A DNA stretch of 39,079 nucleotides from an uncultured Victivallales bacterium (GTDB lineage Bacteria > Verrucomicrobiota > Lentisphaeria > Victivallales > UBA1829): contig CALXSJ010000028.1 of the NCBI GenBank assembly GCA_944391115.1, positions 1-39,079 of the forward strand. The letters are read 5' to 3'. A program made the position numbers and the translations under genes. Positions 35,629 through 39,079 of the stretch are shown here, piece by piece. Every line of letters begins with the position of its first letter. Position 1 is the stretch's first letter. Under the pieces are notes generated by a model. That model saw only the letters and a program-made list of their open reading frames with translations. It made no database searches and had not been told where the DNA came from.

Positions 35629-36562
35629 AAAGTAAGGTGGCGAGCTTGCGCTTCGAGACATTGTATGCTTGAACAGATCGAATTCGAAGAATCGAGTGGA
35701 TTCGAAAATCGAACCTCGAGTTGTAAAAATTGCGTTGGATAATCCAGCCTGGGGACACAGAGGTTTTCCAACGAATTGCGTAAGGAAGGCTTGTTTATTT
35801 CTCCAGAAGACGTCAGGAGCGTTTGGCAGCGGCACGATCTTGAGACCATACAAAAGTGCTTGAATCCCTTGGAAACCAAGGTGCGCAGGAAGGGATCATT
35901 CTAACGGAGTCTCAGCTCCAAGCCCTGGAAAAAGCAAAAGAAGAAAAGCAGGCCGCAGGAGAGATTGAAACAGAACATCCAGATTATCTAATTGCTCAAG
36001 ATACTTTCTATGTCGGTAACATGAAGGGAGTTGGACGGATCTACCAGCAGATTGTGATTGACACCTATTCCAAAGTGGCATTTGCCAAATTGTATGACCG
36101 GAAAAACGCACTGGTTGCCGCCGATATGCTCAATGATCGCGTTATTCCCTTCTTTGACAGCAAAGAGATTCCTATTTTGCGTGCTTTAACAGATCGCGGA
36201 TCGGAATATTGCGGCAACCGGGAACATCATGAATATGAGCTTTATCTCGACCTGGAGGACATAGACCATACAAAAAAACGAAAACAAAATCGCCTCTAAC
36301 GAATGGAAGCTGCGAGAGATTTCATAAAACAATTCTCTCGGAATTCTATCAAATTGCTTTTCGGAAAAAGATCTACGAATCTATTGAGATGCTGCAGAAC
36401 GATCTGGATGAATGGCTGCGGGAATACAATGAATCACGTCCGCACAGCGGGAAGTATTGCTATGGGAAAACACCGATGCAGACATTCCTGGATTCCTTGC
36501 CACTTGCAAAAGAGAAAATGTTGCAGTATAGTAACAACATTTCAAACCAAAAGGAAATATAA
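35629..36562 (+). pseudogene. Degenerate IS481-like (DDE integrase-type) transposase
   Basis: The sequence encodes most of a DDE transposase but in several frames. At 35640-35750 I read ALRDI and IEPRVVKIALDNPAWG. After a shift comes FSNELRKEGLFISPEDVRSV to about 35865. After another shift comes EGIILTESQLQALEKAKEE, then the catalytic core AQDTFYVGNMKG...IDTYSKVAFAKLYDRK...LTDRGSEYCG. A run of seven A at 36272-36278 breaks the frame again. The remainder reads SPLTNGSCERFHKT, IAFRKKIYESIEMLQNDLDE and GKTPMQTF, to TAA at 36560-36562. The usual N-terminal helix-turn-helix part is missing. With at least three frame breaks it cannot be active. Confidence 0.88.
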
Positions 36563-37014: not shown

Positions 37015-37998
37015 TCATAGAGAATTAAGATTTATGTCTCCCGGTTTTTGATTGAAAAAAATCTCAACTAATAAACTATACTCATGGCTAAAAGCGCCGT
37101 TCCTTGCTCCAATGTTCTTTATTACCCCCTTTCCGTAAAATTTTCCACATTTAATATAAAAGTAATATCTTTTATCAAGATTATAAGGAATTATAAGCTT
37201 TTTTGTTGCGTAATTTTTTAATGGAGCATCGGTCAAAAAAGATAAATCCTTTACTGGCATTTTCTCATCAATAAGGATGAAACCATCTAATGGATCAGAA
37301 GAAACAAAACTGAGTAAATAGGTTTTGGGGGCAGGTGCATGAATGCCTCGACCGTTATCTTTTTCATAAATGATTTCCCCTTGCTTATTACGGTCGAAGT
37401 CTAAATAGAGATATTTTTTTAAGGTAATTGGATTTCCCAAGTTAATGACTTCCTTACCCAATTTTCCATCTGCAAGTTTTGAGAGATTACATATAGACTG
37501 GCTATGGTCTTTGATATTATATTCAATTCGCTCATCAAACTTAATTAACTTTGCCAATACTCCAATTTTACGAAGCTTTATATGGTATTGGGTTTGTCTT
37601 GCGGAATCTGGTTCATCTGTTTTTTTTCCGGTATAAAATGTGATATTTTGAGATCTATATCCGTCTTTAATAAAGGTTATAGATACAGCTGTATAATTTT
37701 TCTTTTGAATTAAAAATTTGCCGTTGACTTTCTGTGTATCACACAACCTTTCAGATTCTGTAGCCCATACGTCCTTAGGACGAATAAATTCAATTTCCAA
37801 AGAGACATTCTCAAGTTCGTTATTGTCAATATCAGTTATCTTGCCAACGATGTGTATATCTGCATCATTCAAACGGTTCTCATATGTTTTCTTCAATATC
37901 TCATATCTAGTCTCTCCAGCATTGGCTAATGGAGCAAGCGACAGACTTAGAAATACAAGATTGAAAATAAAACAATGCAATGTAAATATCTTCTTCAT
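37015..37998 (-). CDS. Secreted protein of unknown function, AT-rich
   Basis: The 327-residue protein has a clear signal peptide (FTLHCFIFNLVFLSLSLAPLA, cleavage likely after ANA). Residues ~48-130 resemble a carboxypeptidase-regulatory-like beta sandwich: IVGKITDIDNNELENVSLEI opens it and FIKDGYRSQNITF closes it. The remainder is beta-rich with many Lys and Tyr, and I recognise no catalytic motif. I chose ATG 37998 (MKKIFTLH), with GAGG six bases upstream, over the in-frame ATG at 38010. The gene is much richer in A+T than the genes left of 35 kb, which suggests horizontal origin. It precedes the truncated exbB gene by 43 bases and may have formed a unit with it. Confidence 0.75.
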   Translation of the reverse strand: MKKIFTLHCFIFNLVFLSLSLAPLANAGETRYEILKKTYENRLNDADIHIVGKITDIDNNELENVSLEIEFIRPKDVWATESERLCDTQKVNGKFLIQKKNYTAVSITFIKDGYRSQNITFYTGKKTDEPDSARQTQYHIKLRKIGVLAKLIKFDERIEYNIKDHSQSICNLSKLADGKLGKEVINLGNPITLKKYLYLDFDRNKQGEIIYEKDNGRGIHAPAPKTYLLSFVSSDPLDGFILIDEKMPVKDLSFLTDAPLKNYATKKLIIPYNLDKRYYFYIKCGKFYGKGVIKNIGARNGAFSHEYSLLVEIFFNQKPGDINLNSL

Positions 37999-38225
37999 AA
38001 GTGGCCTCATTTAATAATTTGTGTTTTGTTTTTGAATATTTCCTTAAACCAAGAATGAATTAAATAGAATTCTCTATTTTTCATATCACTGTGTTCTGTA
38101 TTTCTCCAGCCTAGTGCATTCGCATTACAATTGTCAGCTCCTAAAGCATTTGTTTGTCATGTGCAAGAATAAATGGTTCTGCTTTTCAGTAAAAAACAGG
38201 TAACACTTTTCTCCATGTTAATAAG

Positions 38226-38267
38226 TTGACAGTCAATATGATGCGACAATGTATCATATTCTGTCAA
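38226..38267. repeat. 42-base interrupted palindrome
   Basis: TTGACAG (38226-38232) matches CTGTCAA (38261-38267), and inside it ATATGAT (38236-38242) matches ATCATAT (38253-38259), around a ten-base centre. Both arm pairs are perfect. The site lies about 230 bases upstream of the secreted protein gene on the minus strand, so an operator or mobile-element end is possible. Confidence 0.75.
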
Positions 38268-38701
38268 ATGAGAATAAAATAGCATGAAGAAATCTGATTG
38301 CAAATCAAAAATATTTGAATGATGAATGAGAAGTGAGCGATACTGGTGGATCGGGTTTCTGGGAAAGGCGATCCGGAAGTGCCGTAACCATCCGAAGAAC
38401 GGAGTGAACGTTGAAGAAATGGAGCAAAATCTTTCCTTTCAAAGATTTGATCCTTTTTTTGAGTAAAGGTCGTTTGTTCTGAAAAAACGAATTTCGCAAA
38501 ACTCGAAAAATTCTCTGAATCAAAAAGACTTTTGTTATGAATTGGGCGAATAGAGTACCGACCTCTGGATTTTTCGAACACATGTCCTTTGCTAGCATAT
38601 TTTTGCTTTATTCGTTGATTACCAGTATGTTACTTTAATAAGAGATTACAAAATGAATGTATGGCAGAGAAAAATTGACGATCAAAGGTCGGTTTTTCAA
38701 C

Positions 38702-38790
38702 GTGTGCTTCCTCCAAAAAATGCTCTCCAGACCAAAAGACCGGTCTTTTACTCCCCCGGAGAATTTACCGGGAGAGGGTCTGAAGCACAC
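38702..38790. repeat. Nested inverted repeats around a 16-base perfect palindrome
   Basis: GTGTGCTTC (38702-38710) pairs with GAAGCACAC (38782-38790). Inside, CTCTCC (38723-38728) pairs with GGAGAG (38771-38776), and AAAAGACCGGTCTTTT (38734-38749) is a perfect palindrome. CTCCC (38751-38755) can pair with GGGAG (38770-38774). Confidence 0.75.
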
Positions 38791-38833
38791 CTTCATAAGA
38801 GAAAAGTGGAGATTCTCTGCTGTCGGGGGAAAC

Positions 38834-38891
38834 GGGGGTTTGAGCTCAAATTTACCCCCAAAACGAAAAAACCGACCAGAAGACCGGTCGG
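38834..38891. repeat. Two further hairpins, one with the GACCGGTC core
   Basis: GGGGG (38834-38838) and CCCCC (38855-38859) flank the perfect 12-base palindrome TTTGAGCTCAAA (38839-38850). CCGACC (38872-38877) pairs with GGTCGG (38886-38891) over an eight-base loop containing AGAAGACC, repeating the GACC-x4-GACCGGTC layout of the palindrome near 38740. Confidence 0.7.
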
Positions 38892-38908
38892 CGGAGAATC
38901 GAAAAAAT

Positions 38909-38986
38909 GGTGGAGCATTTTTTTATTTTTTAGAAAAATTCTCTCCACCTCAAACTGGCGAATTTTTCGAGTCTCAAAAGGTGGAG
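38909..38986. repeat. Alternating GGTGGAG / CTCCACC inverted repeats
   Basis: GGTGGAG (38909-38915), CTCCACCT (38943-38950) and AGGTGGAG (38979-38986) lie in alternating orientation, so the middle copy can pair with either neighbour. This would permit two mutually exclusive stems. The last copy is followed by CTTTTT. Confidence 0.7.
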
Positions 38987-39079
38987 CTTTTTCACTTCTC
39001 GGAAAATTCTCCGTGAGAAACTGGAACTTCATTCTACCTCAAAAAAGAGTTTGAACATCGCGAAAATGGTAGAAAAGAG

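Follow-up and report, generated by a model that had tools for sequence, protein, structure and literature searches.

Why does a contig of a gut metagenome-assembled genome (MAG) of the Victivallales (Lentisphaeria) end in a dense cluster of palindromes and recurring short modules? The sequence analysed, hereafter the window, is the whole of contig C28 (39,079 bp), one of the 44 contigs of this genome. The cluster is real and exceeds chance expectation: only 10 of 2,000 dinucleotide shuffles of the region contained a palindrome of at least 16 bp, and 7 of 2,000 contained two of at least 12 bp. Our answer, to which we give a probability of roughly three in four, is that the region consists of stacked attachment ends, which belong to integrative elements docking at the 3' ends of transfer RNA (tRNA) and transfer-messenger RNA (tmRNA) genes, most likely by means of a large serine integrase.

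A dispersed repeat fused to tRNA and tmRNA genes

The feature, a dispersed repeat, runs from about 38152 until the contig stops at 39079; the preliminary description of this DNA had listed a repeat-derived element among its options. Further copies in related genomes, the lack of which would have told against that description, are many. There are nine matches in the genome itself, window copy included, and the repeat is present in 13 of the 61 genomes searched, which belong to the same genus, to the same family or to further families within the order; those relatives with this sequence that bear a name are Victivallales/Lentisphaeria MAGs. Copies from different families are 94% identical across 1.45 kb, tRNA-Val(CAC) included. 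Within the genus, occupancy differs: tRNA-Val(GAC) is occupied in G000, G001 and G003 and not in G002, and tRNA-Pro(TGG) in G000, G001 and G002 and not in G003.

The match ends sharply at about 38911-38913, where a second repeat starts; we call the first repeat the P1 end and the second the P2 arm. The right 450 bp of P1 are common to all its subfamilies. Its left edge near 38152 is shared by L032, L036, L037 and L051, with unrelated DNA beyond, and comparison of the left edges revealed no terminal repeat of the kind expected of an insertion sequence or a miniature inverted-repeat transposable element.

In other copies, what lies beyond the P1 stop is a tRNA gene read backwards. We counted 51 distinct P1 ends. 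For 45 of them the fusion partner is a tRNA or tmRNA gene, joined base-exactly at its 3' CCA (22 Pro, 12 Val, 8 Ala, 1 Arg and 2 tmRNA); another five, including that of the window, are joined to a P2 arm, and one to other DNA. Most of these loci were retrieved by similarity to the P1 end irrespective of tRNA genes, and some via tRNA genes or the recombinase described below. The discriminator base is A (A73) in all 45 junction genes, versus 21 of the 42 tRNA genes of the window's genome. Same-isotype junctions from related genomes cannot be treated as independent, so a more cautious tally is nine gene types, every one with A73. The hallmark by which Islander recognises tRNA-targeted islands, an element joined to an intact, restored tRNA or tmRNA gene, is thus found at 45 distinct junctions; the window copy abuts a P2 arm instead.

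Read on the tRNA strand, P1 presents ACCA, a short spacer, and a hairpin followed by a run of T, which together form an intrinsic terminator whose stem is the GACCGGTC unit. With this arrangement, the element re-supplies both the CCA and the stop signal of the tRNA. The CCA itself appears to be element-borne, because the five tRNA-less copies likewise start with A[CG]CA.

P2 arms and stacked ends

The P2 arms are represented by 18 distinct copies. Immediately ahead of each stand T[GC][GC]T and then CG or GG; in the inner L039 copy, which is counted among these, a missing T causes a shift, so that it reads AAAATGG-AGCATTTT. Beyond 10 of the 18 arms, the only displaced piece of tRNA is the TGGT of the native CCA. 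The P1-P2 junction of the window reads AAAATGGT-GG-AGCATTTT, and elsewhere (L177, L158) the equivalent junction is an 18-bp perfect palindrome, AAAATGGTCGACCATTTT. A second P2-type arm, similar to the first, begins at 38985 and is followed by a third TGGT with the start of a T-arm fragment. Taken together, these features indicate that element ends are stacked where the contig stops. The tRNA-like T-arm fragment on the P2 side (39067-39079 in the window) also occurs in L164, with a diverged counterpart in L177.

A second repeat family is found at tRNA CCA ends, where ACCA is followed by TTCATTATCAAGCACTTACAAATAAAATACA after tRNA-Arg(TCT), tRNA-Arg(CCG) and tRNA-Pro(TGG) (L095 and L098 in G000; L123 in G003; L026; L039). 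This family, or a similar sequence, abuts P2 arms too, and perhaps represents the ends of another integrative element.

A large serine recombinase beside tRNA genes

In G001 (L031), a P1 end at tRNA-Ala(GGC) is followed directly by a small partner gene, for 126-128 amino acids, and by a large serine recombinase gene, which is cut by the contig start. The integrase carries Resolvase and Recombinase domains in the relatives L031, L144 and L145. Homologues occur in 23 of the 61 genomes, across several genera and families. At least 12 of the copies are located downstream of tRNA genes, towards which the recombinase turns its 3' end. The genes concerned are tRNA-Pro (G001, G005, G019 and, at a distance, G057), tRNA-Val (G014, G021 and, at a distance, G027 and G057), tRNA-Ala (G001), tRNA-Phe (G011, G030) and tRNA-Met (G043). 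Nine of these copies are at most about 2.1 kb from the tRNA, for which tRNA density gives a chance estimate of about 1% per copy. These tRNAs all end in ACCA with a terminator next; in these recombinase-bearing relatives the hairpin holds the equivalent position, and the hairpins of the diverged elements are unrelated in sequence.

The recombinase matches phage integrases (phrog_95, 1e-112). Its best NCBIfam match is CcrB, which is weak (score 155.8 versus a cut-off of 900), and a domain search gave no match to DUF4368. We think that this recombinase probably makes the junctions.

Proposed integration at tRNA 3' ends

Serine integrases make their cuts at a core of 2 bp, and the attachment sites that they join, attP and attB, are unlike each other. 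Tn4451 is an example (PMC5704250). Under this scheme, P1 and P2 would be the two ends of one element, and the attP site of its circular form would consist of the P1 arm (...AAAATGGT), a 2-bp core (CG, GG or GC) and the P2 arm (ACCATTTT...). The attB site would be the 3' end of the tRNA, comprising T-arm and acceptor strand, with the core at acceptor positions 71-72 and then A73-CCA. Recombination at the core would put the ACCA and terminator of the element in place of the native CCA of the tRNA and the sequence downstream of it, so that the tRNA should stay functional, and the displaced native CCA would land beyond the P2 arm. Further elements could then join at the same place and leave P1-core-P2 junctions, such as that at 38908-38917.

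The tRNA junctions agree with a core that occupies the two bases ahead of ACCA: CG for tRNA-Pro, CC for tRNA-Val, tRNA-Ala and tmRNA, and GC for tRNA-Arg. As putative half-sites, P1 and P2 meet in junctions that fit CG, GG and GC cores and form the 18-bp palindrome; both ends of one element were never seen together. We infer the exact core, the order of these events and the present mobility of the elements. We also favour, with somewhat less assurance than docking itself, a broader proposal: that one lineage of serine integrases takes the common 3' part of tRNAs (T-arm, A73-CCA) as its attB. A single family would then serve many isotypes as well as tmRNA, restore CCA and terminator, and stack its elements, and a change of the 2-bp core would switch the class of tRNA used (CG for Pro; CC for Val, Ala and tmRNA; GC for Arg).

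Several observations weigh against this account. No complete element with both ends was found, and searches that started from the flanking DNA of three P2 arms and from a tRNA-Val(CAC) locus yielded no clean unoccupied site. The distance between recombinase and tRNA is 5-8 kb in G057 and G027. At least five P2 arms are at sites without TGGT, and some arms are outside tRNA genes. Finally, a diverged serine recombinase is all that the window's genome contains, with none close to the query and none near the window copy; the copies in this genome may therefore be orphaned, or the gene may have been lost in assembly gaps. The P2 arms at non-tRNA sites (L025, L167, L178, L182, L176) have TCCT, not TGGT, ahead of the core, and these locations are possibly secondary sites.

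Alternative explanations

The alternative that survives best, although we consider it doubtful, is that the copies of this genome are decayed remnants, now immobile and kept as ordinary repeats that double as tRNA terminators. It accords with the missing close recombinase, with the stacked arms and with short truncated copies such as the 99 bp at tRNA-Val(GAC) in L027. However, the high sequence identity of copies from different genera and families, like the differences in occupancy within the genus, suggests fairly recent movement. This possibility is in any case compatible with docking by a serine integrase and alters only its timing.

It is improbable that the same tRNA-docked ends are mobilised by another enzyme, for instance a tyrosine integrase, with the serine recombinase as cargo or neighbour. 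Tyrosine integrases classically target the 3' ends of tRNA genes (PMC4383910), a different repeat family is also located at tRNA CCA ends, and in the window's genome a tyrosine integrase of the ordinary tRNA-docked type lies just downstream of tRNA-Lys(CTT) (G000:C14:17527-18860). Yet the tyrosine integrase that Islander requires is absent from the P1-bearing contigs of the window's genome, where none of the five tyrosine-integrase matches shares a contig with a P1 end. Moreover, the tRNA part shared at the junctions is the CCA only, far below the usual length of tyrosine att repeats, and the serine recombinase is found repeatedly beside tRNA 3' ends across several genera and families.

The preliminary description had also raised a structured or switching RNA. 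As the main explanation, in the form of a regulatory RNA whose gene follows tRNA genes and was spread by recombination, we regard this as very unlikely. The tRNA strand does fold better than shuffled sequences (z = -4.1), and a portion of P1 hardly varies. Against this, an Rfam search of the region gave no match at the gathering score, and covariation is scarce, with compensated pairs numbering 0 of 58 in 14 close copies and 3 of 35 in 19 copies. Truncated copies of about 100 bp exist (L027), and an RNA leaves the P1-P2 junctions unexplained. The terminator hairpin is the sole clearly functional structure. The idea of a stand-alone regulatory RNA thus loses its footing, whereas the phage-type regulatory site suggested alongside it pointed in the right direction, the region being one of attachment sites.

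Least credible of all is that homologous recombination or gene conversion copied one tRNA trailer onto other tRNA genes: the tRNA and tmRNA genes in which the junctions lie are similar to one another, but the one fixed breakpoint before ACCA in genes as unlike as tRNA-Pro and tmRNA, the occurrence of P2 arms and of P1-P2 junctions where there is no tRNA, and the linked recombinase genes all speak against it.

Motifs, coding potential and neighbouring genes

The individual motifs first reported for the region are present (Table 1). Besides the two perfect palindromes, starting at 38734 and 38839, they include two GACCGGTC units (38738 and 38882), each with GACC and four bases ahead of it, a nested inverted repeat (GTGTGCTTC/GAAGCACAC), GGAGAAT at 38758 and 38893, and ATTCTCC at 39006. 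The GTGGAG modules (38806, 38910 and 38981) and CTCCAC (38943) are likewise there. The mutually exclusive stems proposed for them are not needed, because the copy at 38910 spans the 2-bp junction of element ends and that at 38981 a second, similar one.

It also holds that no gene explains the region: the overlapping open reading frame lacks codon-position bias, and copies differ by single-base gaps. A protein-coding reading was ruled out by the distribution of variable columns over codon positions (16/9/13), by these 1-bp gaps and by the lack of a PHROG match.

Beside the element end, a gene for a 331-amino-acid protein (37015-38010) had no Pfam, NCBIfam or PHROG match, and a search of public genomes found no relatives; the protein is possibly cargo. 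A fragment of an rve-type transposase (35856-36299) is also close to the element end.

Table 1. Coordinates and strands of the features at the end of the window.
Feature	Position	Strand	Remarks
P1 end (longest shared form)	38152..38911	- (strand of the tRNA genes it follows elsewhere)	Right edge fixed
16-bp perfect palindrome AAAAGACCGGTCTTTT	38734..38749	.	Within the P1 end; invariant across 14 copies
12-bp palindrome TTTGAGCTCAAA	38839..38850	.	Within the P1 end; one base shorter in most other copies (TTGAGCTCAA)
Intrinsic terminator, stem CCGACC/GGTCGG and T-run	38866..38892	-	Just past the apparently element-borne CCA
ACCA, apparently element-borne (TGGT on + strand)	38908..38911	-	Point of tRNA fusion in 45 of 51 P1 ends
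Proposed 2-bp crossover core, GG here (CC on tRNA strand)	38912..38913	.	Placed from all junctions
First P2 arm (AGCATTTTTTTATTTTTTAGAAAAATTCTCTCC...)	38914..38978	+	Left edge fixed; 18 distinct copies
Second junction (AGGT-GG-AGCTTTTT) and second P2-type arm	38979..39066	+	Terminal arm in L168, L170, L173, L175
Third TGGT, then start of tRNA-like T-arm fragment	39067..39079	-	Cut by contig end; continues in L164, L152

Comparison with known systems

If our reading is true, a serine system that uses a near-universal feature of tRNAs would represent a new targeting rule. It would help to explain the frequent contig breaks at tRNA genes in these gut MAGs, and could yield integrases whose attB sites can be predicted in many bacteria. 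In 2014, serine integrases were not known to choose tRNA genes, according to the Islander study (PMC4383910), although an island of Dehalococcoides with a serine recombinase was already on record at tmRNA; an earlier description of a tRNA-docking serine system may possibly exist in literature outside our open-access search.

The recombinase resembles CcrA/CcrB/CcrC of SCCmec, but its score is far below the CcrB cut-off and the target is different. The tyrosine-integrase islands of tRNA and tmRNA genes catalogued by Islander likewise target the tRNA 3' end and restore the gene, whereas the linked recombinase here is of the serine family and no long displaced tRNA fragment serves as attR. As in the multi-targeting large serine recombinases (PMC10083194), one recombinase family uses several different target genes. 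Those enzymes, however, commonly have DUF4368 and relaxed motifs, in contrast to the tRNA 3'-end targets and lack of a DUF4368 match seen here, and the text describing them does not mention tRNA.

The nearest precedent is the set of ssrA-specific islands of Dehalococcoides, which have DsiB, a CcrB-like serine recombinase (PMC3146451). Our elements differ from them in that several tRNA isotypes are also used, with only ACCA and the 2-bp core shared, and in that no dsiA/parB/mom module was seen. They have in common a serine recombinase, docking at the tmRNA 3' end, stacking, islands without an integrase, and a tRNA-like piece inside the module.
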